DNA from: Puniceibacterium sp. IMCC21224
GTDB taxonomy: Bacteria; Pseudomonadota; Alphaproteobacteria; Rhodobacterales; Rhodobacteraceae
Assembly (NCBI RefSeq): GCF_001038505.1
Contig: NZ_LDPY01000003.1
Span: 186,001 to 250,000 of the forward strand
DNA length: 64,000 nt
Reading direction: 5' to 3'
Within the stretch, counting starts at the first letter, position 1. Each line of letters opens with the position of its first letter. The notes under the pieces were generated by a model. That model saw only the letters and a list, made by a program, of their open reading frames with translations, was not told the DNA's origin and made no database searches. Shown here one piece after another: positions 5,501 through 18,668 of this stretch. Position numbers and translations under genes: made by a program.

Positions 5501-6787
5501 TTAACTGTTTGTCATTGCCCGCCATAGTAGCCCTGCGAAGTCGCGTTGAGATTTCCAATAAATGCAGAGACTGATGAACTTAGTCATCACTGCCGGAGCG
5601 CAGCGCAGGCAGGAGCGCAGCGCAGGCAGGAGCGCAGCTATTGTAAGTACGGCAGCAGCATAGAATGCAGCTGGGTAGTGGAACGATGCAATAATTGGCT
5701 GGCTTAGAAGCGGTGACACGAACTGTCCCAGGAATAGGCTTGCCGTAATCACACCTGCTGTTCGACCACGAGTTTGTGGCGATGCAAGTGCCATGGCACT
5801 TGAGAAGATATTCGGGATGGAGATCCCCATCCCGAGACCCGTCAGCCCCGTCCCACACATCACCGTCAGTATTGTGGTGCTCGCGCCTGTCACGGTAATG
5901 CCGAGAGCCATCGCCGTCAGGCCAACCAGAAAGATGACCTTGGCACCCATTCTACTCCGCAACGTGCCGAAAGTCAGCGACGCCATCGCGGAAACGAATG
6001 TCATCAGCCCCATCGAAAGTCCGGCGAGCGAAGGCGACATAAACCCTAGCTCTTTGAGGCGATAGGGTAGTTGCGAAGGGATGATGTAGAAAGCGCCGCT
6101 GACAAACAGGGCCACGACGCAGAGAGCGAGAATACCGGCCGGATTTGCAAAAGTCACACCAGCAGGGTCGTTTCCTTTGGGTCTATCCGGCATGGGTTCA
6201 GTCAGAACACGCCACGCGAGAAATGCCAGCGGCAGAGCAAACGCGTAGATCACGAACGGATAGCGCCAGTTGATATCCGCGAGGAATCCTCCCGCCGTCA
6301 AAAACACAAGACCGCCAAATCCGGTGAAAGCCTGTTGGAGCCCCATGTAGCGATCCCGTTCCGCCCCATTAAAATAGTCGCCTGCCAGTGCCATCCCGAG
6401 CGTCATGATCCCTGCCACGGCGACTCCCAGCAACGCCCGCCCGGCCAGCAGTCCGTAGAAGCTATCCAGCCAAAGTCCCGAGCTTCCGGCAAGGGCGTAG
6501 AGAACGATTGTGCCTATCAGCAACGATGTTCGCCCCACGCGGTCAGCAACTCTTCCGATGATCGGCGAGGCGATGACGACAAAAAGCGCCGGCAGGGTCA
6601 ATACCAGTCGGCTGAGAAGTTCGATATGCGCTGTGCCGGCGTACGCTGCGGTGATCCCCGGCAATGACGGCGAGATTGTCGCTCCTGCCATGATTGTCAG
6701 ACAGGCGGTCAGCAAAAGCGTCAGCTTCAACAGCCAGCTTGGCGGGGCATGCGTAGGTGCTGCCGTGGTCGCGGGGGCTAAGGTCAT
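5501..6787 (-). CDS. MFS transporter with a frameshifted, extended C-terminus
   Basis: A 428-residue, 12-segment major facilitator with LVLTLPALFVVIASPIIGRV and the motif RVGRTSLL after helix 2, a drug-efflux-like permease. The ATG at 6787 overlaps the stop of the FMN reductase at 6784 by 4 bases, so the two are translationally coupled and probably share the TetR-controlled promoter near 7440. A 17-bp tandem duplication at 5602-5635 changes the reading frame 13 codons before the likely ancestral stop (TAA at 5580-5582). Removing one copy restores an ending of LPALRSGSDD; the present frame instead adds about 35 unrelated residues. The pump core is intact, so it may still work. Confidence 0.85.
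   Translation of the reverse strand: MTLAPATTAAPTHAPPSWLLKLTLLLTACLTIMAGATISPSLPGITAAYAGTAHIELLSRLVLTLPALFVVIASPIIGRVADRVGRTSLLIGTIVLYALAGSSGLWLDSFYGLLAGRALLGVAVAGIMTLGMALAGDYFNGAERDRYMGLQQAFTGFGGLVFLTAGGFLADINWRYPFVIYAFALPLAFLAWRVLTEPMPDRPKGNDPAGVTFANPAGILALCVVALFVSGAFYIIPSQLPYRLKELGFMSPSLAGLSMGLMTFVSAMASLTFGTLRSRMGAKVIFLVGLTAMALGITVTGASTTILTVMCGTGLTGLGMGISIPNIFSSAMALASPQTRGRTAGVITASLFLGQFVSPLLSQPIIASFHYPAAFYAAAVLTIAALLPALRSCLRCAPAVMTKFISLCIYWKSQRDFAGLLWRAMTNS
5595..5638. repeat. 17-bp tandem duplication in the end of the MFS gene
   Basis: On the plus strand the unit AGCGCAGGCAGGAGCGC occurs at 5602-5618 and again at 5619-5635, with a 7-base partial copy before it. Because 17 is not a multiple of three, the extra copy shifts the minus-strand MFS frame. 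Confidence 0.95.
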
Positions 6788-7395
6788 GATGCCGTTGCGT
6801 CTTCGGAGAATGATGCAGCCTGCCGCACTCTTAGTGTTTTCAAGGCTTCCGACCAGTCAAGAACCTGGATCAAGGTTTCTACTAGGGCATCAACGGCGCG
6901 ATCGCCCCCAACCCATGCTTCGGGTGCGGTAAAAAGCGCCTTGGAGGTCTGAGATGTCATCAGCACCTGAGAGCGCACGGTCGCGGTGCGCGTCTCGGCA
7001 AGGATCAGACGCAATTGCTCGACCGCCCGTGCGCCACCGATACCGCCATAGCTGACGAAACCAGCGGCTTTGTCGGACCACTCGGAATACAGAAAGTCGA
7101 TCGCGTTCTTCAGCGCCCCTGGGATCGAGTGGTTGTACTCAGGCGTCACGAAAATGAAGCCATCACAGGCATCGACGGCCTTTGCCCATGTCTTCGTGTG
7201 AGCGTGGCGATAGTCCCCCATGATCGCAGGCACAGGCTCATCCAGCATCGGCAGATCAAAATCTGCGATGTCGAGGACGTTGAACTTGGCCCGGTCTCCG
7301 CAGCTTTCACGGGCCGCATGCGCGACACCCTTTGCAATAAGATGGGATTTTCGGCCGGGTCGGGTACTTCCGGTAATGATGCCGATGGTGAGCAT
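6784..7395 (-). CDS. NADPH-dependent FMN reductase (ArsH/YieF/ChrR-like)
   Basis: A 203-residue flavodoxin-fold protein with the FMN loop GSTRPGRKS at residues 8-16 and the family signature TPEYNHSIPGALKNAID; SYGGIGGARAVEQLRLIL follows. The family reduces quinones, azo-compounds, chromate or free FMN with NADPH in the cytosol. Start 7395 is chosen over the upstream ATG at 7419 because AAGGA sits 6-7 bases before it. It is the first gene of a two-gene unit with the MFS pump (4-base overlap) and is divergent from the TetR regulator. Confidence 0.87.
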   Translation of the reverse strand: MLTIGIITGSTRPGRKSHLIAKGVAHAARESCGDRAKFNVLDIADFDLPMLDEPVPAIMGDYRHAHTKTWAKAVDACDGFIFVTPEYNHSIPGALKNAIDFLYSEWSDKAAGFVSYGGIGGARAVEQLRLILAETRTATVRSQVLMTSQTSKALFTAPEAWVGGDRAVDALVETLIQVLDWSEALKTLRVRQAASFSEDATAS

Positions 7396-7539: not shown

Positions 7540-8157
7540 ATGGTAACAGGCAACGTTTCAAAACGTGAAGCCATCATTCGTGGCGCGCGCACAGTGTTCG
7601 GGCGCGACGGCTTCGCCAGAGCCAGCATGGACGACATCGCTGCGACAGCGAATGTGTCCTCGCGCACGATCTACAATCATTTCGGCGATAAGTCCGGCCT
7701 GTTTAGTGCCCTAATTGTCGAAAGTGCGCAGGAGGTTCGCGACGCGCAGATTGCTGAGATTGAGCGTCATCTTGGCAAGATTGTTGATCTAGAAGAAGAT
7801 CTTCGCGCATTGGGAACAGCTTTTGCGACCAACCGTTCAAGATTTCCGGAACATTTCGCACTGGTTCGCCATATCTATGCCGAGGCAGGTCACCTTCCAG
7901 CAGATGTGCTGGCCGACTGGGCGGCAGCTGGACCAAGGGCGGTTCATCGGGCTTTGACTGGGGCGCTGGAGGATCTCCAAAAACGAGGGCTCTTAAAGTT
8001 TGATGATAGCACGCGCGCGGCCAATCAATTCGTGGCGCTGGTCGGGACCGAAGTGAATGAACGAACGTTCGGCGGTACGGTCCCCACCGATCCAGCCTTC
8101 ATAGCTGCGGTGGTTCGTGCTGGAGTCGAGACTTTCCTTCGTGCGTTCAAAGCCTGA
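7540..8157 (+). CDS. TetR family transcriptional regulator
   Basis: A 205-residue protein with a TetR N-terminal helix-turn-helix (ARTVFGRDGFARASMDDIAA, then VSSRTIYNHFGDKSGLF) and a helical ligand domain with an AefR-like C-terminus (AIVRAG-type ending). Start 7540 has GGAG 6-9 bases upstream; an in-frame ATG at 7483 has no ribosome site. Likely represses itself and the divergent reductase-MFS pair through the palindromes at 7421-7463. Confidence 0.87.
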   Translation: MVTGNVSKREAIIRGARTVFGRDGFARASMDDIAATANVSSRTIYNHFGDKSGLFSALIVESAQEVRDAQIAEIERHLGKIVDLEEDLRALGTAFATNRSRFPEHFALVRHIYAEAGHLPADVLADWAAAGPRAVHRALTGALEDLQKRGLLKFDDSTRAANQFVALVGTEVNERTFGGTVPTDPAFIAAVVRAGVETFLRAFKA

Positions 8158-8553
8158 AGCCAGATGCTGTAACCACTTAACTTTTAGCGACATAGGCGGC
8201 CTGGGGTCCGCTGGTCAGAACTCAACGGTTCTGTCACAGGCAGAATCCACCGTTTTTGCCCTACACATTGTGACCAGGGGTTTTTGTCCGACAGCGGCCG
8301 TTCGTGACATGTGCGGCGAAAGTCGGGATCGAGCCCGACTCGACAGATTCTGCACTATGCACGAAGGCCCGATATCGCAAAAGTTCCGAAACCTTCATCA
8401 GCCCCTTAGGTTTTGGCTGGGGTTTGTGGCAGCGCCAATTCGGGCAATTTTTAAGGTGTTGGCGGTAATTATCCCCAAATCGCGTTATTCCGCGATTTGG
8501 TTTGCAATAGATTAACACCCATGATTTTTTAGCGAAAAGAGTGGGGTGATCGA
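8158..8553. other. Non-coding stretch with dispersed-repeat copy A
   Basis: I see no gene in these 396 bases. They hold roseobacter-like intergenic sequence, including one copy (8249-8289) of a 41-bp repeat also found at 12710-12750 and 15481-15521, and a palindrome AATCGCG...CGCGATT near 8478-8500 that may act as a terminator. The promoter of the next gene must lie in the last 100 bases. Confidence 0.6.
8249..8289. repeat. 41-bp dispersed intergenic repeat, copy A
   Basis: Starts ACCGTTTTTG and ends GGTTTTTGTCC. By hand alignment it matches copy B (12710-12750) at about 34 of 41 positions and copy C (15481-15521) at about 29 of 41, with the two ends best conserved and the length constant. 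Confidence 0.65.
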
Positions 8554-9147
8554 ATGCTGATTATCATTTCGGCAGTGCTTTCTGCGGCCTGCTATGCAGT
8601 TGTCCTCGGTGTGTTCCTTGCGTTTCATGTAATTGCACCCGAACGGTCAATTTTCGCCCATGCAGTCAGCGACTATGCTGTGGGGAAGACGGCTCGCCTA
8701 TTTATTGGCTACGGCCTCGTAGGAAGTCTTGGGGCCGCATTGCTGGCGATCGCGACAGTATCCACTGGCGATTTCCCTGTGCGAGTTCCGATCTATCTCG
8801 CGCTTCTGGCCATCTTGCGGATCGGGGTGCTGCGTTTTCGGACCGATATCGAAGGCGAGGCGGTCACACGTGAAGGCAGGCTGCACTATGTTTTTGCCAT
8901 CATAACTTTTGCTTTAACCTACATGATCGTTTCAGCAGCACAGCCGACGTTAGGCACTTTCGCCAACCCGCCACTGAACGCGATCCTTAGTGGTCTCGGC
9001 TGGATAGCGACTATCTCGCTGGTGGGCGTGGTAACGACGCTGTTGCCGCCGCTCAGGCGCGTGTTTGGGTTGGCAGAGCGTATCTTCCTTCTGTCCACAG
9101 CATTTTGGCTGCTCTTGCTGGCCGTCACATTGGTAGCATCGCGCTAA
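8554..9147 (+). CDS. DUF998-like integral membrane protein
   Basis: A 197-residue protein with about six hydrophobic helices. The first loop carries HAVSDYAVGKTAR, resembling the HxxSDY motif of DUF998 membrane proteins, followed by FRTDIEGEAVTREGRLHY in a cytoplasmic or periplasmic loop. Function is unknown for the family. It has its own start 7 bases after a GTGG-type weak ribosome site, and stands alone, convergent with the LysR gene at 9265. Confidence 0.72.
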   Translation: MLIIISAVLSAACYAVVLGVFLAFHVIAPERSIFAHAVSDYAVGKTARLFIGYGLVGSLGAALLAIATVSTGDFPVRVPIYLALLAILRIGVLRFRTDIEGEAVTREGRLHYVFAIITFALTYMIVSAAQPTLGTFANPPLNAILSGLGWIATISLVGVVTTLLPPLRRVFGLAERIFLLSTAFWLLLLAVTLVASR

Positions 9148-9264
9148 ATCCACGGTTTATTGAGCGACTGCCAAAAGCGGCCTTTGGTGCAGTCGCAGCG
9201 AAAGCTCACTTTGTCCGCATATCACTCACAGAGAAGGCTTGGTTCAAGCTTGACCATCCTTCAG

Positions 9265-10164
9265 CTAGCTCGCTCGGCGTTTGGAAAGATGGTCGATAAA
9301 GGCCCGCAACGCGGGCGTCACCAGACGTGTTCCGGCATAGTAGAGATAATAACCTGGAAATTGCGGTGTCCAGTCTTTCAGAAGGGTTTGCACCTGCCCT
9401 GAAGCGATTGATGATGCAGCGTCCTGCTCAAACAAGAACGCGATTCCGGCTCCGTCAATGGCTGCTCGTAGAAGAACACGGGCGTCCGTCGAGATAAGTG
9501 GTCCATCCACTTCAATGTTGAAGCAGCGGCCGTCTTTCTCAAATTCCCACAACCAAGGCACCCCGGTGGACGGTCGAAGGAAGTTGAGGCAGGAATGTTC
9601 GCGAAGCGCTTCGGGTGTTTCAGGATGACCGTGATCTGCGAGATAGGCAGGCGCGGCGACAACGACCATACGCACCGCACCACCGATCGGGATGGCGCGC
9701 ATCCCCAGGCCCAAGCTTTCACCAAGCCGCAAACCGCCATCGAAACCGCCCACCACGGCATCGTCCAGCGTTTCGCTGACGACAATCTCGACCTTCACGT
9801 CTGGATAGGCGGCATGAAAGCTGGCCAGGTGCGGCGCAAGAGCATGTTCTGCACCCACACTTGGAGCAGTAATCCGCACACGCCCGGTCACACAATCCAG
9901 AGTAGCAAGCAATTCACCTTCGGCTGCCGCAATCTCGGCCAGCGCTGGCGTGATGCGCATGCGCAGTCGTTGACCTGCTTCGGTTGGTGCAATGCTGCGG
10001 GTCGTGCGGTTCAAGAGCCTTTGCCCCAACCTTTGCTCAAGAGCGCGGATCGACTGGCTGACGGCCGAGGGTGTCATACCGAGATGGGGCGCTGCCATAC
10101 GGAAGCCGCCATGATCCAACACTGCAAGAAATACCCGCAATTCGGCAATGTCATGTCCGCGCAT
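9265..10164 (-). CDS. LysR family transcriptional regulator
   Basis: A 299-residue LysR protein with N-terminal HTH (LRVFLAVLDHGGFRMAAPHL, SAVSQSIRALEQRLGQRLLN) and a substrate-binding domain. ATG 10164 is preferred since AAGGAGAAGG lies directly upstream and the family begins at this point; the frame stays open to 10242. It is divergent from the aldo/keto reductase at 10262, about 97 bp between starts, the typical LysR arrangement with its target. Confidence 0.88.
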   Translation of the reverse strand: MRGHDIAELRVFLAVLDHGGFRMAAPHLGMTPSAVSQSIRALEQRLGQRLLNRTTRSIAPTEAGQRLRMRITPALAEIAAAEGELLATLDCVTGRVRITAPSVGAEHALAPHLASFHAAYPDVKVEIVVSETLDDAVVGGFDGGLRLGESLGLGMRAIPIGGAVRMVVVAAPAYLADHGHPETPEALREHSCLNFLRPSTGVPWLWEFEKDGRCFNIEVDGPLISTDARVLLRAAIDGAGIAFLFEQDAASSIASGQVQTLLKDWTPQFPGYYLYYAGTRLVTPALRAFIDHLSKRRAS

Positions 10165-10261
10165 TGTATGCCTTCTCCTTAACAGTGTGATCGTATCGTA
10201 GGGCATTATCATTGCGCCGTCGATTTGACATCTTCTCACCAAATCAAGATGGAGAGTAACG

Positions 10262-11308
10262 ATGCGGTTAGACGATTACAGGTTGCTTGGGCGATCAGGA
10301 CTTAAAGTGTCGCCGATGGCATTGGGCACGATGACTTTCGGGACCGAATGGGGCTGGGGCGCGGCCGAAGCAGACGCGCGGCAAGTCTTCGACACCTATG
10401 TTGATCGTGGTGGCAACTTCATCGACACGGCCAACTTTTACACCGGCGGCACGTCCGAGAAAATGGTCGGTGCTTTCGCCGTCGGCCGGCGCGACACGTT
10501 GGTCATTGCCACAAAATATACCCTTCCGATGCGCGCGGGCGATCCAAACTCTGGCGGCAACAGTCGTCGCGCAATGGTTCGCGCGGTGGAGGACAGTCTC
10601 AGACGGCTAAAGACTGACTATATTGATCTTTTTTACCTCCACGCTTGGGACTCGACGACGCCGGTTGAAGAAATCCTGAGAGCGATGGATGATTTGGTGG
10701 CTGCGGGCAAGGTCGTCTACCTCGGGCTGTCGGACATCCCGGCGTGGCAAGCCGCTCGTATGCAGGCCGTCGCCGATTTGCGCGGCTGGTCTCCGATGAT
10801 AGCCCTACAGCTCGAATACAATCTCATCGAACGCAGTGGCGATCGCGACCTGATCCCGATGGCCCGCGAGATGGGTATGGGCGTCATTCCATGGTCCCCG
10901 CTCGCCAGCGGGCTGCTGAGTGGAAAGTACAGCCGGGAGGACCTTGAGGGCCGTACAGATGTCCAGGGTCGTGCAGCCATGGCGCGACAGGGTTCACCCA
11001 TGGATGATCGGACCTTCGGCATCCTCGACGTGCAGGCGGACATCGCTGCCGAGACGGGCCAAAGCCCCGCTGCAGTCGCCTTGGCCTTCCTGCTGTCGCA
11101 ATCTGGAATCGCCGCTCCTATTGTCGGCGCGCGGACACTTGAGCAGCTCGAAGGCAACCTTGCAGCACTGGATTTTGAACTGGAACCTGCGCAGTTGTCA
11201 CGTCTTGAAGACGCAGGGGCGCCGGACCTTGGGTTTCCTCACTCTTATCTCAAGCGACCGGAGATACGTCAGAACATCTACGGCGGATTGTCCATTCAAA
11301 CACGATAG
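10262..11308 (+). CDS. Aldo/keto reductase (AKR)
   Basis: A 348-residue TIM-barrel NADPH-dependent oxidoreductase. The catalytic tetrad is visible: Asp in FIDTANFY with its Tyr five residues on, Lys in VIATKYT, and His in LFYLHAWD. The phosphate-binding end is IVGARTLEQLEGNL near residue 290. The family reduces aldehydes and ketones in the cytosol. GGAGAG precedes the start by a few bases. The divergent LysR regulator at 10164 is the likely controller. The transposon of region 2 is inserted 134 bp after its stop. Confidence 0.9.
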   Translation: MRLDDYRLLGRSGLKVSPMALGTMTFGTEWGWGAAEADARQVFDTYVDRGGNFIDTANFYTGGTSEKMVGAFAVGRRDTLVIATKYTLPMRAGDPNSGGNSRRAMVRAVEDSLRRLKTDYIDLFYLHAWDSTTPVEEILRAMDDLVAAGKVVYLGLSDIPAWQAARMQAVADLRGWSPMIALQLEYNLIERSGDRDLIPMAREMGMGVIPWSPLASGLLSGKYSREDLEGRTDVQGRAAMARQGSPMDDRTFGILDVQADIAAETGQSPAAVALAFLLSQSGIAAPIVGARTLEQLEGNLAALDFELEPAQLSRLEDAGAPDLGFPHSYLKRPEIRQNIYGGLSIQTR

Positions 11309-11442: not shown

Positions 11443-11450
11443 TAAAATTT
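11443..11450. repeat. Target-site duplication, left copy (TAAAATTT)
   Basis: The eight bases TAAAATTT directly before the left inverted repeat are repeated exactly at 18661-18668 directly after the right one. Eight bases is the duplication length known for IS1595-family elements. Confidence 0.93.
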
Positions 11451-11475
11451 GGGGGTGTCCGCAAACTGTGTTGGT
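11451..11475. repeat. Left terminal inverted repeat of the IS1595-family transposon
   Basis: Starts GGGGGTGTCCGCAAAC and ends TGTTGGT; 25 bases identical to the reverse complement of 18636-18660. Confidence 0.93.
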
Positions 11476-11528
11476 TCACTTCGGATTAGTTTGAAAGGGC
11501 CTATGTTACCTCGCTTTCCCAGCGGAGG

Positions 11529-12524
11529 ATGCCCTTGCTACACCACGACTTTCGCCGTTTTATCGATGCTCTCGACGAACTGAATCCGGCCCAGATCGAG
11601 GACGCCCAGGCTAAGATCCGGGATCTTCGACGAAAGACGGAGGCGATTTCGGAGATCGAAGCGCGGACAAACCGAGAACGCAGGTGCCCTTTATGCCACG
11701 ACAATCAACGCCAGAAATGGGGCCGCACACGCACCAACGTCCAGCGCTACCGATGCTCGGGCTGCAAGAAGACCTACTCGGGCCGGACCGGAAGGGCCAT
11801 CGGCCTCATCCATCGCCCTGATTTGTTCATGGTCGTCCTGTGGGATATGCTGGGCACTTCCGTGCTGCAGTCTGTGCGAGCTCTGGCGCATCAACTTCGG
11901 CTCAACAAATACACGATCTGGCGCTGGCGGATGCTAGTGTTTTCGATCATCGGTAGTGGCACGGAGATGGACTTCTCAGGGATTATCGAGGCGGACGAAA
12001 CCTACCAGCGGGAGTCGCGCAAGGGATCACGGGAGTGGGTCCGGCACTTCGCCGATCCGCAGAATTTCTCACAGCCGCCGCGGCCCCGTTGGGGAGACTT
12101 CACGACACAAGGACTGAAAATGATGCGCGGCCTATCGAGGTGGCAGCTGCCCATTCTAACGGTTGCCGACCGCGGCGGCGCACGGCTCTTCCGTAGACTC
12201 CCGAACCGAAAGGGCGCGACGGTGGAGCGCGCGATGAACCCCTTAGTCCCGGGCGATGCCGTGCTCTGCTCGGACAGAGGCAACGGCTACAAGAACCTTG
12301 CGGCAGCACGCGGCCTTGAGCATTTCGTAGTCGGAAGTAAGCCCGGCACACGGGTCGCGGCGGGCTGCTATCATAATCAGAATGTGAACTCGCTGCACGC
12401 CCGCTACGGCAGTTTCATCAAACCCTTCTGCGGGCCAGCGACGAAGAACCTGAACGGCTACATCCGGTGGCTGGAAGTCCGGATGGAAGGAATGCAACCG
12501 GCAGAAATTATTCTTGTGTCATAA
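11529..12524 (+). CDS. IS1595-family transposase
   Basis: A 331-residue transposase. The N-terminus has a zinc ribbon (CPLCHDNQ ... CSGCKKTYS, residues about 57-82), followed by a HTH-like segment (ALAHQLRLNKYTIWRWR) and the ISXO2-like catalytic domain with EADETY and CSDRG supplying two acidic residues. The third position sits in NQNVNSLHARYGSFIKPF, where the IS1595 family uses Asn, His or Glu plus Lys. It cuts and joins at the terminal inverted repeats. The length is normal, the frame is intact, and intact flanking repeats suggest the element could still be active. A GGAGG stretch abuts the ATG, closer than usual. Confidence 0.92.
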   Translation: MPLLHHDFRRFIDALDELNPAQIEDAQAKIRDLRRKTEAISEIEARTNRERRCPLCHDNQRQKWGRTRTNVQRYRCSGCKKTYSGRTGRAIGLIHRPDLFMVVLWDMLGTSVLQSVRALAHQLRLNKYTIWRWRMLVFSIIGSGTEMDFSGIIEADETYQRESRKGSREWVRHFADPQNFSQPPRPRWGDFTTQGLKMMRGLSRWQLPILTVADRGGARLFRRLPNRKGATVERAMNPLVPGDAVLCSDRGNGYKNLAAARGLEHFVVGSKPGTRVAAGCYHNQNVNSLHARYGSFIKPFCGPATKNLNGYIRWLEVRMEGMQPAEIILVS

Positions 12525-12883
12525 GCTTGGTGCTGCTGTGGTCAGATGTCAGCTTCGAGCCCAAAGTGCATGGTGCTGCGCCCTGCATGAATGTCTGCTC
12601 TATCGTGGCACGGCCAAAAACGTGACAAAATTAAAGGCAGTTTTGCCAAGGTTTTGTGGCACAAAAATTTTCAACGATTCCAGCGGCGGTAAAGTGAGTG
12701 ACAAAAACGACCGTTTTTGGTCATCACATTATGACCAGTGGTTTCTGTCCCTGCTGACTGGCGGCAATGTGGGACATAGCGAGCCCCCGCAGGGCTCTCA
12801 GCAGTAAGCACTTCGGAGTTTTTACCAAAAGCAGTGGAGCTACCGTTGAGATGAGGTCATTAAGATCTGGTCTGCAATATGAC
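12525..12883. other. Non-coding stretch inside the transposon with repeat copy B
   Basis: No gene seen. Contains a perfect palindrome CAAAAACGACCGTTTTTG at 12702-12719 that runs into copy B of the 41-bp repeat (12710-12750). The palindrome lies between a plus-strand gene and a minus-strand gene that converge here, so a bidirectional terminator role is possible. This is where an ordinary IS1595 would have its right end, but none is visible. Confidence 0.6.
12710..12750. repeat. 41-bp dispersed intergenic repeat, copy B
   Basis: Starts ACCGTTTTTG and ends GGTTTCTGTCC; same length and ends as copies A (8249) and C (15481). Confidence 0.65.
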
Positions 12884-13774
12884 TCACCCGAGCCGGTCCA
12901 ACTCCTTGCCAATGAATCCGTTAAGGTGGTCGGCTACCTGCCGCACCCGCGCCGAGCGACGGATATCAGGGTGCATTACGAGGAACAGAGGGCGGGGCTC
13001 GAAGGGATTATCATCTGGAAGTTCCATCAGGTCGGGCAGAGCGCGCGCAGCAAAGCGTGGCAGCAGCGCAAGACCTAATCCGGCGCGAGCACTGGCCATC
13101 AGCGTCGCCATGTCGTTGCTGCGCAACCCGATGCTCGCAGTCTCGGCCTGAGTCCGCACATCTAACCAATGGGCTTGGGGCAGGTCGGGCAGGCTGTCAT
13201 CAAAACCAAGATAGACACGTCTCGCCGGTGGCAACGCGATCTGGTCAGGGCGCCCGTATAAACCATAGGCCACCGATCCAAGTCGGCGGGTGATCAGATC
13301 CGGACCGACAACTGCGCCTATCCGCAGGGCAATATCAGCCTCGGCCCGATCCAGGTCGCTGGTCTGCCTTGCGCCAATCAGAATTGGCACCAGACCCGGA
13401 TGTGTCTGCCTCAGTGTCGTCAGCCCCGGTGCCACCAGCATCGCCAGCAGTACCGGGGGCGCTGAGATACGAACCTCGCCAGTCAACGCATCAAGCCCAG
13501 CAGCAGTGCGGGACAAAGTCGCAACCTCACGCTCAACCGCTTCGGCCTGCGCCACGAGCCGCGCTCCCTCGGGTGTTGGCCGCCAGCCTCGCGGCAACCG
13601 GTCGAACAGGCGCAGCCCGAGCGTTGCTTCGAGCCCGCCTACCCGACGCGAGACGGTTGAGTGCTCGACCCCTAGCCCCCGAGCCGCAGCCATCAGGCTA
13701 CCTGCGCGCACGAGCGCTAGGAAGAACCTTAGATCATCCCAAGCCAATGGATCAGTCTGATTATTTATGCCCAT
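12884..13774 (-). CDS. LysR family transcriptional regulator (transposon passenger)
   Basis: A 296-residue LysR protein with N-terminal HTH (LRFFLALVRAGSLMAAARGL, STVSRRVGGLEATLGLRLF) and substrate-binding domain. It is divergent from the MDR-SnoaL pair at 13859 with an 84-bp shared promoter region, so it probably travels with, and regulates, those two genes as a self-contained cassette. The start may also be the internal alternatives near DPLAWDDLRFFL, but 13774 fits the family length. Confidence 0.87.
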   Translation of the reverse strand: MGINNQTDPLAWDDLRFFLALVRAGSLMAAARGLGVEHSTVSRRVGGLEATLGLRLFDRLPRGWRPTPEGARLVAQAEAVEREVATLSRTAAGLDALTGEVRISAPPVLLAMLVAPGLTTLRQTHPGLVPILIGARQTSDLDRAEADIALRIGAVVGPDLITRRLGSVAYGLYGRPDQIALPPARRVYLGFDDSLPDLPQAHWLDVRTQAETASIGLRSNDMATLMASARAGLGLALLPRFAARALPDLMELPDDNPFEPRPLFLVMHPDIRRSARVRQVADHLNGFIGKELDRLG

Positions 13775-13858
13775 ACCATGTCAATTTTTTTATCCTTACG
13801 GCGAAAAATAATCGCACTACCCTCACCGTCAATGCAAGAGGTAACCCGAGGATAATCT

Positions 13859-14920
13859 ATGAAGGTAATTGGAGCATGGCGGGCACTACCCGCTAGCGAG
13901 CCGCAGTCTTTAGTCGACCACGAACTACCTGCGCCGCTACCAAAGGCCACGGATCTTCTGGTGCGGGTCGAGGCAGTTTCCATTAACCCCGCCGATGCCC
14001 GGGTGCGGATGCGCAAGGAGGCTGACGACACATTTGCCGTTTTCGGTTGGGACGTGGCAGGCACGGTGGTCGACATTGGAACCGAAGTGACAGGCTTTTC
14101 CCCTGGCGATGCTGTTTTCTATGCAGGCGATTTGACCCGACCTGGCGGCAATGCCGAATTGCACATTGTCGAGGCCGGGCTCGTCAGTCGTCGGCCCCAA
14201 GGATTGAGCGCCGCACATGCCGCTGCGCTGCCGCTGACGGCGCTGACCGTGTGGGAAGCACTCTTTGAGCGGCTCGGCTTGCCTGAACCGGATGGAATGG
14301 CAGAAGTCGATGCTCCGGCAAGGACCCTTCTGATCGTCGGCGGTGCCGGAGGGGTTGGGTCAATGGCAATCCAGGTCGCTAGGATGGTGCCTGGTCTGAC
14401 CATCATCGCCACCGCGTCACGGAGTGAAACGCGTGATTGGTGTCTGAACCTTGGCGCGGACGCAGTGATCGACCATTCGGGCGACATGGCCGCAGAGCTG
14501 ACTGCACGCGACCTGCCTGCACCGGACCTGATCCTTTTGGCTGCCGATCCTGACACGCACTTTCCGATACTCGCGGCCATGCTCGCACCGCAAGGACGCA
14601 TCTGCTGTATCGTCCCGTTTGACACACCACCCGACATGAATCTTCTGATGCAGAAAAGCGCTGCGCTGACCTGGGAATTCATGTTCACGCGGGCCATGTT
14701 CGCCACCCCGGACCGGGCACGGCAAGGCGTCATCCTAAACCATGTGGCGACCTTGATTGATGCCGGTCGGTTGATTCCCGCCGTGCCCGAAATTCTCGGT
14801 CCTATTAACGCTGCCAACCTGCGCGCGGCCCATTCCCGGATCGAGGGCAAGCGCACCATTGGCAAGCTGGTGCTTGCCGGATTTCCCCCAACCACAATCA
14901 ACCAAGGAGCTTCCTTATGA
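13859..14920 (+). CDS. MDR-family zinc-binding/quinone oxidoreductase-like enzyme (passenger)
   Basis: A 353-residue medium-chain reductase of the AL1/ZADH1-like group (MKVIGAWRALPASEPQSLVD start). It has the GroES-like N-domain with SINPADARVRMRKEADD, FGWDVAGTVVDIG, and the cofactor loop IVGGAGGVGSMAIQVAR at about residue 160. Asn-Pro-Ala-Asp replaces the zinc-ligand Cys, as in NADPH:quinone reductases. Predicted to reduce quinones or activated alkenes with NADPH. Its stop overlaps the start of the SnoaL-like gene by 4 bases. Divergent LysR regulator upstream. Confidence 0.88.
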   Translation: MKVIGAWRALPASEPQSLVDHELPAPLPKATDLLVRVEAVSINPADARVRMRKEADDTFAVFGWDVAGTVVDIGTEVTGFSPGDAVFYAGDLTRPGGNAELHIVEAGLVSRRPQGLSAAHAAALPLTALTVWEALFERLGLPEPDGMAEVDAPARTLLIVGGAGGVGSMAIQVARMVPGLTIIATASRSETRDWCLNLGADAVIDHSGDMAAELTARDLPAPDLILLAADPDTHFPILAAMLAPQGRICCIVPFDTPPDMNLLMQKSAALTWEFMFTRAMFATPDRARQGVILNHVATLIDAGRLIPAVPEILGPINAANLRAAHSRIEGKRTIGKLVLAGFPPTTINQGASL

Positions 14921-15330
14921 CCGACGTAACACAATCCGCCGTAGAGGTTACTCAAGCCTTCCTCGCTGCGATCTTTTCGGGTGCGATGGAAACCGCCATG
15001 GCCATGACTTCGCCGGATGCAGTCTTCGTTTCGACCAATCCGCACAGTAATCCCGGCAACCCAATGCACGGAACCTTTACCGGCCATGACGGTGCTGCGG
15101 CGTTCTTCGCTGGTTTTGCCGAGGTGCTGGAGCCGGGCGACTTTGAAGTGATTGCAGCGTTTGGCGACGAGAGCCATGCCGCGCTCTACGGCAAACTGAG
15201 GCACACCGTGCGTGCTACTGGCAGGCCGTTCGTCAGCGATTGGGCCCTGATAGCACGGATCAAGAACGGACAGATCGCGCTCTATCACTTCTACGAGGAT
15301 ACCGAGGCGCTGACCGAAGCTATGAGATGA
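14917..15330 (+). CDS. NTF2-like / SnoaL-like family protein (passenger)
   Basis: A 137-residue single-domain protein of the nuclear transport factor 2 fold: an N-terminal helix (TQAFLAAIFSGAMETAMAM) followed by a strand-rich cone with PDAVFVST, FTGHDGAAAFFAGFAEVLEP and a C-terminal YHFYEDTEAL. Members include isomerases, cyclases, dehydratases and detoxifying proteins of unknown reaction. It overlaps the MDR gene by ATGA and should be co-translated with it, so both probably act on the same compound. AAGGAG lies 8 bases before the start. Confidence 0.83.
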   Translation: MTDVTQSAVEVTQAFLAAIFSGAMETAMAMTSPDAVFVSTNPHSNPGNPMHGTFTGHDGAAAFFAGFAEVLEPGDFEVIAAFGDESHAALYGKLRHTVRATGRPFVSDWALIARIKNGQIALYHFYEDTEALTEAMR

Positions 15331-15480
15331 TGCTCACAAGGCGGACCTGCGGGTCCGCCTCAAAATTTATCCAGTGTGGTGGCAACGGGCCTTCATGTAA
15401 TGCGCAGCATCGGTCGATCTGGGCACTTCGCGCCGGGCATTCTGGACAAAATTCGGAGGTTTCTGTCCCCGGCGAAACCG

Positions 15481-15521
15481 ACCGTTTTTGACTACTAGGT
15501 ATTGGCAAGGGGTTATTGTCC
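15481..15521. repeat. 41-bp dispersed intergenic repeat, copy C
   Basis: Starts ACCGTTTTTG and ends GGTTATTGTCC; the most divergent of the three copies. Its end overlaps the stop of the CMD-like gene. Confidence 0.55.
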
Positions 15522-15908
15522 AGCCTCGCCACGCTCCTTGAAAACCTCCAAAGCTACGTTGAGCGCATTGATGGCGGCGGGAAAGCCACCGTACAATGCC
15601 ATTTGCCAGATCGCTTCCGCGATTTCCGTTTGGGTAAGACCAGCCCTCAGCCCTCCCTCAATGTGAATGCGAAGTTGAGGGGCTGTCTGTCCCCCCAAAG
15701 CGGTAAGAGCGGAGATCGTCGCAAGATTGCGATCACGAAGGGACAGTCCTGGCCGATCATAGTGTCGCCCGTAGACGAAACTGATCAGGTCTTGCGGCAT
15801 TCCAGGCAGAAGCACGCCGTAGCGCGCCTCTAGGGCCTCTTCCAAACCGGGGTTATGCCTCTCAGCCAGTGCCTTGCCCCGCTCATAGGGATTTTCCATG
15901 TCGCTCAT
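15513..15908 (-). CDS. Carboxymuconolactone decarboxylase (CMD) family protein (passenger)
   Basis: A 131-residue all-helical protein with the CMD signature region RDRNLATISALTALGGQ and a second helix pair IHIEGGLRAGLTQTEIAEAI / WQMALYGGFPAAINAL. It has no CxxC pair, so it belongs to the decarboxylase-like branch and not the AhpD peroxidase branch. It lies 11 bp after the SMP-30-like gene on the same strand, and the two probably form an operon. In this family such proteins hydrolyse or decarboxylate lactones, or act as oxidative-stress partners; the substrate is unknown. Confidence 0.85.
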   Translation of the reverse strand: MSDMENPYERGKALAERHNPGLEEALEARYGVLLPGMPQDLISFVYGRHYDRPGLSLRDRNLATISALTALGGQTAPQLRIHIEGGLRAGLTQTEIAEAIWQMALYGGFPAAINALNVALEVFKERGEAGQ

Positions 15909-15919
15909 CCTCTCAAGTC

Positions 15920-16765
15920 TCAGGGGTAGGCTCGCGCTGACACATTGCCTTCCAACATGGAAGGAAGAACCAGCGTGTTGCCGTATGCTGCAATATCCGC
16001 AAGCCCGGCAGGATACTCGGCCACGACCGTATGAGCACCATCCGCCCCGACTTCGAAGAGCTGCCCCGTGATCCAGTCGCTGACCAAAAGCGTGTCGCCG
16101 ATCCGCACAATGCCGTCGAGGTTTCCAAGGCTCGGGACAATGGTGCTGATCGCTTGAGTCTCAAGATCGACCGCGAGCAAGGAGCCGGGTACTTCCGTAG
16201 AAAAATCGTCGCGCATCCCTTTTCCCCAGGACCCAACGACAAGCCGCTCTTCGTCCAGGAAAAGACCATTGGGATGCGCCAGTGCCTCATCTTCCAGCCA
16301 GACGGTCATGTCGCCTGCCTGATAGTGCCAGATGCGATTGCCCATGAAGTCACTGACATAGGCCTGTTCGCCATCGGACGTGATGTCATTAAGAAACACC
16401 GCACCATCGACCTCTTGGCTGCGAAGAAGAGTTCCCGTCGACAGGTCAATCTCGTGCAAACGTGTGAGATCAGCGACAAGAAGCGTTTTCCCGACAATCG
16501 CCATGCCTTTTGGCGCGTCGAGCCCCGTGATCCAGTTTGGCTCCGAAATCTCGCCATCCAGCGCTAGCAGGGCCAAGTGCCCGTTTCCGTCTGCTTCTCC
16601 AGGATGCCCTTGGATGACGCTGACGATGACACGATCATGCTCTGCGTCAAAAATCGCACTTTCGGGCATATCGAACGGACCAGCAGCCCAACTTGCCGGA
16701 TCGGCATGCAAAGGTGAGGTCAGACCGATCAGAACAGTCACGATAGATGTGATGGTATGGTTCAT
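15920..16765 (-). CDS. SMP-30/gluconolactonase-like beta-propeller, exported (passenger)
   Basis: A 281-residue protein beginning with a signal peptide (about residues 1-21, ending near LHADPAS), then repeated propeller blades: GPFDMPESAIFDAEHDRVIV, LDAPKGMAIVGKTLLVADLT, VFLNDITSDGEQAYVSDFMG, GNLDGIVRIGDTLLVSDWI. The Asn-Asp of FLNDI and the Asp of VSDW are where SMP-30 enzymes bind calcium. Likely a periplasmic lactonase or ligand-binding propeller. Co-directional with the CMD-like gene; a lactonase next to a muconolactone-type decarboxylase is suggestive of lactone handling. The XRE gene is divergent. Confidence 0.82.
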   Translation of the reverse strand: MNHTITSIVTVLIGLTSPLHADPASWAAGPFDMPESAIFDAEHDRVIVSVIQGHPGEADGNGHLALLALDGEISEPNWITGLDAPKGMAIVGKTLLVADLTRLHEIDLSTGTLLRSQEVDGAVFLNDITSDGEQAYVSDFMGNRIWHYQAGDMTVWLEDEALAHPNGLFLDEERLVVGSWGKGMRDDFSTEVPGSLLAVDLETQAISTIVPSLGNLDGIVRIGDTLLVSDWITGQLFEVGADGAHTVVAEYPAGLADIAAYGNTLVLPSMLEGNVSARAYP

Positions 16766-16833
16766 GGGTTTCTCCGTTGCTGTGTCGCAAACTCTATCTT
16801 TCTGATACGCATCTGGGTATTTCTGACTAAATG

Positions 16834-16850
16834 GTATCTGCTTTCGATAC
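16834..16850. promoter_or_regulatory. Operator candidate between SMP-30-like and XRE genes
   Basis: Inverted repeat GTATC (16834-16838) N7 GATAC (16846-16850), with a further GATAC/GTAT pair at 16804-16820. It lies in the 116-bp gap between the divergent genes, where the XRE protein would be expected to bind. Confidence 0.45.
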
Positions 16851-16881
16851 TATTCGCCCCTTCCAGCATCGCGAGGTCACC

Positions 16882-17625
16882 ATGCAGGCGGAACTCTTCG
16901 AGCTTCTGAAGACGGTACTCAAAGCGCGCCGCATGACCTATGCAGACCTGGCTGAGCTGCTGGGACTGTCAGAGCCAACCATCAAACGCATCTTTGCAGA
17001 GAGGGATTGCAAGCTCAGCCGCATGAATGAGATTTGCGCCGCGCTCGGCCTGACCCTTGATGATCTGGTGGCGGAGGCAAATCGCGTTGAGGTGCAGCCG
17101 ATCCGACTTACTGACCGTCAGGAGGCGCGGCTTGCCGATGACCGTCCAGCTTTCAACCTGTTTCTCTTGCTTCTGGATGGCATGACAATTGAAGCGATCC
17201 AAGAACAGTATCGGCTAGAGAAACAAAGGGTTTTCAAACTGGGCATAAAGCTGGAAAAGATCGGGCTTGCGGAGGTAATGCCGGGCAATCGCATCCGCCT
17301 GACCGTACAAAGCCCGGTCGAGTTTCGTCGCGACGGCCCTTTGCACCAAGCACTTGTGAAGCTGAATATGGCGTTTCTTCGCAGCACCTACCTCGCACGG
17401 GACACGGAGCACTCGGCCTATCTGACTCAAACACGTCGCATGACGCAGAAGACAGCGAAGCACATTCTGGCGCGTCTTCGTGATGTTCAGGTCGAACTGT
17501 CAAACCTCGCTCGCAGAGATCAGCTCACTCAACCTGAAAATGCACTCCAGAGCTTCAAGATCGGCATCGCGCTCTCTCCAATAGTATTCTCCGAGCTACT
17601 TCTGTTGGCAGAAGAAGGCTCGTAA
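16882..17625 (+). CDS. XRE-type helix-turn-helix regulator with long C-terminal domain (passenger)
   Basis: A 247-residue protein. Residues 1-70 form a Cro/CI-like HTH (LKTVLKARRMTYADLAELLG, LSEPTIKRIFAERDCKLSRM, ICAALGLTLDDLV). The remaining 175 residues are a helical domain (FNLFLLLLDGMTIEAIQEQY, RLEKQRVFKLGIKLEKIGL) that I cannot assign; similar proteins are annotated only as transcriptional regulators. ATG 16882 has GAGGT five bases upstream; the frame opens earlier at 16831 without a ribosome site. Divergent from the SMP-30-like/CMD-like pair, its likely target. Confidence 0.8.
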   Translation: MQAELFELLKTVLKARRMTYADLAELLGLSEPTIKRIFAERDCKLSRMNEICAALGLTLDDLVAEANRVEVQPIRLTDRQEARLADDRPAFNLFLLLLDGMTIEAIQEQYRLEKQRVFKLGIKLEKIGLAEVMPGNRIRLTVQSPVEFRRDGPLHQALVKLNMAFLRSTYLARDTEHSAYLTQTRRMTQKTAKHILARLRDVQVELSNLARRDQLTQPENALQSFKIGIALSPIVFSELLLLAEEGS

Positions 17626-17694
17626 CGCCAAAACTCATACGTTTATGTCACCGGCGATAACGACCGTTTGTGGAACGAGTGACCGGCTGTTCTA

Positions 17695-18526
17695 GGATCA
17701 GGATTCATAACCAGTAGATGACGACCGCGGCGAGGGCGATGGCTGAGAGGAACACCTTGGGACAGCGATCATAGCGTGTCGCGACTCGCCGCCAGTCCTT
17801 GAGCCTGCCGAACATGATCTCGATGCGGTTGCGCCGTTTGTATCGACGCTTGTCGTATTTGACGGCCTTCTTGCGCTGCTTTCTACCAGGGATGCAGGCG
17901 CGTATCCCCTTGTCTTTCAACGCCTCTCGGAACCAGTCGGCGTCATAGCCGCGATCTCCGAGAAGCCAGTCGACCTTGGGCAGACTGCTCAGTAACGCCC
18001 GCGCACCGATGTAGTCGCTGACCTGTCCAGCGGTGACGAACAGGCTGAGCGGTCGCCCTTGGCTGTCGCAGATGGCGTGCAGCTTGGTGTTCATGCCGCC
18101 CTTGGTTCGACCGATCAGGCGGCCACGCCCCCTTTTTTCGCGGCCAGGCTGGTCGCAGTGCGGTGGGCTTTCAGATACGTCGCGTCGATCATCACGGTCT
18201 TTTCCTCGCCGTGTTCGGCAGCCAGACCGACCATCATCCGGGCGAAGATCCCTTTCTCGCTCCAACGCTTCCACCGGCTGTACAGCGTCTTGTGCGGTCC
18301 GTAGGCTTCAGGGGCGTCGCGCCAGCGCAAGCCATTGCGATTGATGAAAATAATCCCACTCAAGACCCGTCTGTCATCGACCCGAGGCTTGCCGTGGGAC
18401 TTGGGGAAAAAAGGGGCAAGCTTGGCCATCTGCTCGTTGGTCAGCCAGTACAGGTCGCTCATATCACCGCTCCGTTTTCCGAGCCGTGAATCACGCAGCG
18501 CGTCGAAAATCAATGCATCCTGACCC
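17695..18526 (-). mobile_element. IS5-family (IS427-type) insertion sequence nested in the transposon
   Basis: 832 bp bounded by imperfect inverted repeats: GGATCAGGATTCAT at the left (17695 on) and, inverted, GGGTCAGGATGCAT at the right (ending 18526). The flanking dinucleotide TA (17693-17694 and 18527-18528) is the expected target duplication for this group. The transposase is encoded on the minus strand in two frames. It sits between the XRE gene and the right end of the IS1595-family transposon, so it entered a non-coding spot. Confidence 0.88.
17705..18462 (-). CDS. IS5/IS427-group transposase, two frames joined by -1 frameshift
   Basis: The first frame runs from ATG 18462 (GGAG upstream) to a stop at 18115 with MSDLYWLTNEQMAKLAPFFP and the first catalytic Asp in MIDATYLKAHRT. 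The second frame, open to 17705, supplies GDRGYDAD (second Asp) and RRNRIEIMFGRLKDWRR (Glu). The frames overlap at a slippery A6G5 run (minus-strand bases 18138 down to 18128), and a slip of -1 there fuses them to about 250 residues. This is the usual production mode for IS427-type elements, so it is probably functional, not broken. Confidence 0.88.
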
Positions 18527-18635
18527 TAATTTATGACAGTCATCTTCGATAGGCGGAAACGACGGTTTGTTTAATGGTTCGCCGAAGCAGACCTTGGCGC
18601 ATTAGCGGCGAAAGGCCGCTTCGTCCACATAGCCG

Positions 18636-18660
18636 ACCAACACAGTTTGCGGACACCCCC
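18636..18660. repeat. Right terminal inverted repeat of the IS1595-family transposon
   Basis: Reads ACCAACACAGTTTGC ... ACACCCCC on the plus strand, the exact reverse complement of 11451-11475. Confidence 0.93.
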
Positions 18661-18668
18661 TAAAATTT
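18661..18668. repeat. Target-site duplication, right copy (TAAAATTT)
   Basis: Exact copy of 11443-11450, directly abutting the right inverted repeat. Confidence 0.93.

Follow-up and report, generated by a model that had tools for sequence, protein, structure and literature searches.

The window that we analysed comprises 64,000 nucleotides of Puniceibacterium sp. IMCC21224, a member of the Rhodobacteraceae (contig NZ_LDPY01000003.1 of assembly GCF_001038505.1, positions 186,001 to 250,000). The segment at 11443-18668 of this window is an outer IS1595-family transposon that moved as one piece, and we describe here its contents, which comprise two groups of genes bordered by conserved non-coding sites designated LE (conserved left segment) and RE (end site of a cassette). 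A description made from the letters alone, hereafter the sequence-only reading, had claimed perfect 25-bp inverted repeats 7.2 kb apart, the same 8-bp duplication at both borders and a single IS1595-family mobile unit, all of which was borne out. The terminal inverted repeats at 11451-11475 (plus strand) and 18636-18660 (minus strand) match at 25/25 bp, with about 2e-6 pairs of identical 25-bp inverted repeats expected by chance in 64 kb; they bound an element spanning 11451-18660, and TAAAATTT is present at both 11443-11450 and 18661-18668. The open reading frame (ORF) at 11529-12524 (plus strand) matched the IS1595 transposase profile NF033547 of NCBIfam with 104.9 bits (cut-off 75); Pfam gave nothing for it at E ≤ 0.001. 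The complete 7.2-kb element was found as a single copy in its own genome, where fragments (a copy of oxidoreductase and SnoaL genes, and IS5 relatives) occur elsewhere, and the joined flanks representing an empty target site were absent from the other 119 of the 120 related genomes searched.

Behind the transposase gene lie six passenger genes and a nested insertion sequence, exactly as had been described. Cassette 1 comprises a LysR-family regulator (12884-13774, minus strand; PF00126, PF03466), a zinc-type oxidoreductase of the zinc-binding alcohol dehydrogenase family (13859-14920, plus strand; TIGR02817, 372 bits) and a SnoaL_2 protein (14917-15330, plus strand; PF12680). Cassette 2 comprises a carboxymuconolactone decarboxylase (CMD) family protein (15513-15908, minus strand; PF02627), a 281-aa ORF (15920-16765, minus strand) that is beta-propeller/lactonase-like by eye only and for which Pfam and NCBIfam gave nothing at E ≤ 0.001, and a regulator of the HTH/XRE type (16831-17625, plus strand; PF13443). 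The nested element, at about 17695-18523 on the minus strand with ends read by eye, belongs to the IS5 family; its two overlapping frames scored 164.4 and 108.8 bits with NF033580 (cut-off 110). Two relatives of the IS1595 element, at L056 1888-3573 (1.69 kb) and L058 1399-3191 (1.79 kb), carry differing predicted passenger ORFs (122 and 174 aa) at the same position. The passengers to which the sequence-only reading had drawn attention are thus present, but the carriage of cargo as such does not set the element apart.

Copies of the cassette-1 genes were met at two other places. In the same genome, L009 4812-5857 (G000:C3:32811-33856) holds a partial copy (94%) of the 3' part of the oxidoreductase gene with the SnoaL gene, which stops at the equivalent of window position 15363 and lacks an RE. 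In Paracoccus sediminicola, L265 3228-7597 (NZ_CP115769.1) carries these genes at 88.8% identity without LE or RE, next to a tyrosine recombinase and another serine recombinase, and the same plasmid has a complete LE/RE array.

Comparison of the element with itself revealed a repeat common to its three intergenic regions. The left segment, LE (12557-12721, plus strand; model R1 matches 12606-12721), starts with GAGCCC and is proposed to be an attI/res-like site; its proposed crossover site I, CAAAAACG-AC-CGTTTTTG, lies at 12702-12719 on the plus strand. All further sites are also on the plus strand. LE is followed at 12728-12753 by M5, a cassette 5' motif (weak, E = 0.2). RE1, the end site of cassette 1, occupies 15444-15493 (site I around 15474-15490) and is followed by the M5 of cassette 2 at 15496-15526 (E = 5e-5); both M5 copies were in the M5 training set. 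RE2, the end site of cassette 2, occupies 17627-17673 (site I around 17656-17672). The two regulator-plus-target groups recognized in the sequence-only reading are separate cassettes. The right half of a further RE at 18551-18571 (E = 0.005 with a model built without the window) is probably the remnant of a lost third cassette, and RF, the right flank of the inserted unit, extends over 18577-18636 (E = 1e-8) and overlaps the right end of the IS1595 element. The nested IS5 element lies between RE2 and this half RE, and inspection by eye showed no clear target duplication, suggesting the deletion of a third cassette.

The LE and RE models had been partly trained on window sequences, and the search of the window was rerun with models rebuilt without these. 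LE (E = 1.6e-31), RE2 (6e-16) and RE1 (3e-11) were found again, together with a further RE at 8214-8261 (5e-11), whereas the same models gave no match better than E = 0.4 in the reversed window. The latter RE (8213-8261), which lies outside the element, is accompanied by M5. Behind it comes a unit bounded by GAGCCC (at 8331), in which a single gene (8554-9147) encodes 197 aa and RF is located at 9173-9224.

These sites recur in other genomes around other genes, so that the cargo is not the plain passenger DNA for which it had been taken. A BLAST search of the element against 248 genomes of the family, performed before any model was built, gave many matches to non-coding 12557-12720 (LE) and 17627-17673 (RE), besides those to the transposase and other genes. 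Four genomes (G134, G082, G232 and G098) had LE and RE as a pair on the same strand, separated by 0.5-1.5 kb in which other genes lie. Alignments yielded a consensus of about 165 bp for LE and about 46 bp for RE, with M5 directly after LE and internal REs and RF after terminal REs. The loci examined below were chosen for matching LE, RE or a recombinase; frequencies are therefore taken only from the surveys, whose stricter filters lost weak matches in the case of the two sites. Among 394 genomes of the family, LE was found in 99 (E ≤ 0.01), RE in 42 (E ≤ 1e-5) and close homologues of the recombinase described below in 38. Beyond the family, a search of 220 genomes of the class gave weak LE matches in 8 genomes outside it (best E = 3.4e-4).

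The order LE-genes-RE, with further genes and REs in some cases, recurs with unrelated genes. RE lay downstream of LE on the same strand in 20 of the 22 nearest LE-RE pairs, the two exceptions being L063, in which the RE nearest to LE precedes it, and L129, in which the sites are on opposite strands. The counts of order, M5 and RF disregard the duplicate loci L157, L141 and L011 and were restricted to matches that passed a limit on length and E-value. M5 was found within 15 bp after 24/75 LEs and 13/59 REs, and RF within 40 bp after 13/59 REs, when the training loci were included. The M5 model had been built from 21 of the sites counted and the RF model from 11; in a recount without these, M5 followed 7/57 LEs and 10/56 REs, well in excess of the roughly 0.0008 per site expected by chance. 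An LE or RE was present within 6 kb upstream of 34 of 56 REs. Cassette-free sites, in which LE is joined directly to RF, were found in L062 and, with a weak RF (E = 3e-3), in L153.

Arrays reach four cassettes elsewhere. L118 and L227 each have one LE and three REs, and p1 of Paracoccus sediminicola (NZ_CP115769.1), no part of which was in the training sets, has one LE and four REs beside a recombinase. The 34 delimited cassettes measure 0.5-3.9 kb, one cassette of P. sediminicola p1 about 7 kb, and their genes are often on both strands. Ten cassette proteins were scanned; nine had Pfam matches, each with a different kind of family (methyltransferase, PNPOx, NACHT ATPase, EamA transporter, SnoaL, SDR, MBL-fold, glyoxalase and GNAT), and one had none. 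In the loci, a tyrosine-recombinase profile made from 12 enzymes picked out five ORFs and a search for serine recombinases yielded more, none of either lying within the 34 delimited cassettes; L238 and L231 have a recombinase upstream of an RE whose cassette is not delimited at its start. A search for the same cassette at two loci returned short common ends at RE (e.g., L226/L239, 92% over 112 bp, stopping at RE) and common gene stretches in L228/L242; a clean whole-cassette pair was not found.

LE is tightly linked to a gene for a small serine recombinase. DNA similarity between L142 and L239 spans a 179-aa ORF and continues into LE (652 bp, 82%). The encoded protein matches PF00239, has kept the RVST and DRLxR motifs and ends in a C-terminal helix-turn-helix; its closest solved structures are the DNA-invertase-labelled 4m6f and 3uj3, which we take to be Gin of phage Mu, followed by gamma-delta resolvase. 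The recombinase gene starts about 10 bp from LE: the distance was within 12 bp in 14 loci. In the best 30 recombinase loci, drawn from the 49 places listed and overlapping with these 14, LE was found at most 28 bp from the start codon in 24, all of them divergent and three overlapping the start by up to 4 bp; of the others, two had LE 0.9-1.2 kb away and four had no LE in the available sequence. In L310 (3551-7058) and L311 (6003-11272), a methyltransferase, an ATPase and other genes separate the recombinase from LE, as if inserted between them. By eye, LE beside the recombinase consists of inverted pairs of half-sites followed by CAAAAACG-AC-CGTTTTTG. Resolvase res sites are built of several inverted half-sites, with the subsite for crossover placed at their far end, and the layout of LE appears to match this arrangement. 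Both LE and RE have inverted half-sites around a common central AC, which is present in 52/59 REs and 12/13 LEs.

Complete units were examined on 10 named plasmids out of 45 plasmid records with close recombinase homologues. The recombinase abuts LE in 8 of the 10, and RE follows in three. In P. sediminicola p1, the recombinase (5752-6291, minus strand) is adjacent to LE (6303-6409), with REs at 7806, 8932, 11118 and 18117 on the LE strand. In pTB3 of Roseobacter denitrificans (NC_008388.1), the recombinase (9762-10301, plus strand) is adjacent to LE (9645-9751, minus strand), which is followed by M5, one gene and RE (8788-8836, minus strand). In pP14_e of Phaeobacter piscinae (NZ_CP010686.1), a recombinase, LE, M5 and TetR and SMR genes precede RE (7182-7230). 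In 9 of 11 pairwise comparisons of plasmids, similarity stopped no more than 4 bp from where the LE match ends, most sharply for pTB3-L312 (91% over 6929 bp) and L312-L314 (92% over 2309 bp). In the two others it stopped about 60 bp earlier (L308-L313) or ran past LE (L308-L312), in the latter case because both plasmids have the same TetR-SMR unit.

Between the transposon and the array we recognize a middle layer. IS1595 similarity to L058 extends to 12556 and gives way to LE from 12557 onwards, with GCTTCG at both junctions (12552-12557 and 18618-18623). The array thus appears to have been inserted into the IS1595 element in the form of a unit of the LE-to-RF type; L058 has GCAGCTTCGTCCACATAG at the point corresponding to the insertion. 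The block from 12557 to about 18623 looks like a mobile unit inserted behind the IS1595 transposase. In the same genome, an LE-to-RF unit of ~1.4 kb is present in two copies that are 98.9% identical (L011 5354-6781, on C5, and L012 4306-5731, on C1). Their near-identity begins at the GAGCCC of LE (L012 4315, which is 9 bp into the BLAST block) and ends, by eye, in RF, and a common unit with the same kind of ends occurs in plasmids L308 and L312. This outer unit starts with GAGCCC and stops before GTCC. The L011/L012 unit holds a VPLPA-CTERM-like gene (named by eye), and the copy on C5 is preceded by a 210-aa tyrosine recombinase, which is a candidate for moving the outer GAGCCC-bounded unit.

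These findings suggest a cassette system of integron-like type driven by a serine recombinase, and we think it probable that the window holds a recombinase-less two-cassette array of this system, within a mobile unit, within an IS1595 transposon. This nest of three layers is the best explanation of the 7.2-kb segment. In the complete system as we picture it, the gene for a small serine recombinase of the invertase/resolvase group would adjoin a res-like LE and be transcribed away from it. A circular cassette with a single site, made of RE joined to M5, would recombine at the central AC with crossover site I of LE, the product of insertion would be LE-M5-genes-RE, and repeated insertions would give arrays; LE would thus take the part of attI, RE that of attC and the serine recombinase that of IntI. 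That this recombinase makes the exchange and that circles exist, as well as the direction of the steps, we infer from the comparisons. The window copy lacks a recombinase gene, and none of the candidates scored in the genome proved to be a close homologue, so that this copy is probably dormant unless an enzyme is acquired; its present carrier is the IS1595 element. Given the missing enzyme, the weakness of its first M5 and the reduction of one RE to a remnant, it is most aptly called a stranded array of two cassettes that travels with IS1595. With somewhat less assurance, we favour the wider proposal that Rhodobacteraceae use a 'serine integron', i.e., a means of cassette capture unrelated to integrons, with a recombinase of the invertase/resolvase type, a res-derived entry site and RE-M5 cassette sites, whose cassettes and recombinase-less arrays would have spread to plasmids, chromosomes and transposon interiors.

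Several observations weigh against this interpretation. Its support is wholly comparative and recombination was not observed; neither a circle nor an empty/filled pair at one locus was found in the sequences compared. In the genome itself, no close recombinase homologue was found at E ≤ 1e-50 among the 8 of 23 first-look candidates that were scored. M5 behind the LE of the window is weak (E = 0.2), and both M5 and RF are weaker beyond the training loci than within them, RF following only 2/48 REs at non-training sites. In the available sequence, 22 of 56 REs have no LE or RE within 6 kb upstream, some of them being near contig ends. In a rough count of 29 rows, the LE beside the recombinase has AC at its centre in 19, GC in 6 and others in 4. 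The two closest other copies of the cassette-1 cargo (P. sediminicola, 88.8%; own genome, partial, 94%) have neither LE nor RE, and the former sits beside a tyrosine recombinase. The 11 plasmid comparisons share plasmids and are not independent; they are also weaker than they appear, as L312, L313 and L314 have no M5 or RE after LE and in two of the nine (L310, L311) only LE itself matches.

We considered the possibility that a tyrosine recombinase drives an integron-like system, with the 210-aa XerC-like integrase as agent and RE as a folded attC. This enzyme (G000:C5:157852-158481) is encoded 128 bp from LE on the same strand, a 69%-identical relative adjoins the cassette-1 cargo in P. sediminicola, and matches at E ≤ 1e-20, fragments included, were found in 22/34 genomes chosen for LE/RE versus 4/20 others, one of which has a weak LE. 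Yet, among 20 integrase loci, LE was present only at that of the own genome, one other having a weak half RE, and on this ground the enzyme was set aside as cassette agent. The serine recombinase adjoins LE far more often, and the 210-aa integrase may instead move the outer GAGCCC-bounded unit. An integron integrase (TIGR02249) over the cut-off was found in 0/38 genomes with LE matches. RE was also tried as an integron attC, since it has two imperfect inverted arms, but among aligned copies the arms are paired no more often than after shuffling and lack covariation: in 58 distinct REs, 78.9% of cells were paired versus 79.7% after shuffling, and covariation was 0.046 versus 0.054, the arms of the tested fold having been guessed. 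Rfam gave a single match, under its gathering score. With neither IntI nor a covarying attC fold, the system is not an integron by its defining parts, and we regard the tyrosine-recombinase explanation as unlikely. Quite unlikely, too, is the idea that LE is merely the res site of plasmid multimer resolution, beside which genes gather via res-targeting transposons or homologous exchange between plasmids. It would fit with the recombinase and LE belonging to the common backbone of several small plasmids, and with the cargo that some plasmids carry after LE without M5 or RE, but it leaves unexplained the separate RE site, the arrays with one LE and several REs, and those located away from a recombinase and inside an IS.

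Two further explanations would deny the sites a function in cassette exchange. LE, RE and RF could be decayed dispersed repeats, similar to miniature inverted-repeat transposable elements (MITEs), that flank genes by chance or through homologous recombination. RF-like and GAGCCC-type repeats are indeed scattered, some of them without LE, and RF seldom follows RE outside the training loci. The ordered and oriented occurrence of LE and RE, the placement of M5 immediately behind these sites and the close, constant spacing between LE and the recombinase start codon argue against this explanation, which we hold to be very unlikely. The segment could also be a plain passenger-carrying IS1595 transposon that picked up genes, with intergenic repeats devoid of meaning. 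Its ends, duplications and transposase agree with this, as do the different predicted passenger ORFs of L056 and L058. However, LE and RE are also met in combination with other genes at loci that showed no IS1595 left end, order and strand are kept in all but two of the LE-RE pairs, and the models built without the window still detect its three complete sites; we therefore give this explanation hardly any credence.

If the proposed serine-recombinase cassette system is real, the capture of cassettes would have arisen in it independently, and the way in which Rhodobacteraceae trade small gene sets would be explained. LE, RE and M5 would then be searchable signatures for the annotation of gene insertions that are otherwise unexplained. 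The system is directly testable, because complete units of enzyme and sites are present on small natural plasmids, such as pTB3 of R. denitrificans.

Integrons are the known machines that stack single genes into arrays. The system described here resembles them, and the clusters of attC sites without integrase known as CALINs, in having an entry site beside a recombinase gene, where one is present, and a conserved site at the end of each cassette, as well as in the occurrence of arrays, recombinase-less arrays, entry sites without cassettes and varied cargo. This likeness (one entry site, an array, each cassette ended by a site) is one of organization only, not of homology. Unlike in integrons, the enzyme is a serine recombinase rather than IntI, the sites conserve sequence and not a covarying fold, and the cassettes measure 0.5 to about 7 kb, often with genes on both strands. 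A statement in a 2022 paper (PMC9668308) has integrons absent from Alphaproteobacteria. In a literature search covering titles and the openings of abstracts, no description was found of cassette arrays run by a serine recombinase, or of such a role for the resolvase/invertase family. Known Tn3-type resolvases and DNA invertases resolve cointegrates or invert segments. Their modules share with the present system a small PF00239 recombinase that is divergent from an adjacent site made of several inverted half-sites; here, in contrast, a second type of site (RE) ends gene cassettes that can be stacked. Staphylococcal cassette chromosome (SCC) elements use large serine recombinases of their own (Ccr), and pdif modules use XerCD. 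As in these, blocks of genes would be exchanged site-specifically by a (here predicted) recombinase, but the enzyme is small and located at the entry site, and none was found within the delimited cassettes. With passenger-carrying IS1595 transposons the element has in common its transposase, 25-bp inverted repeats, 8-bp duplications and passengers between the transposase and the right end; it differs from them in that the passenger region is a separate unit holding a cassette array. The carrier transposon by itself would thus count as a new representative of a known kind, and the novelty applies to the cassette system.

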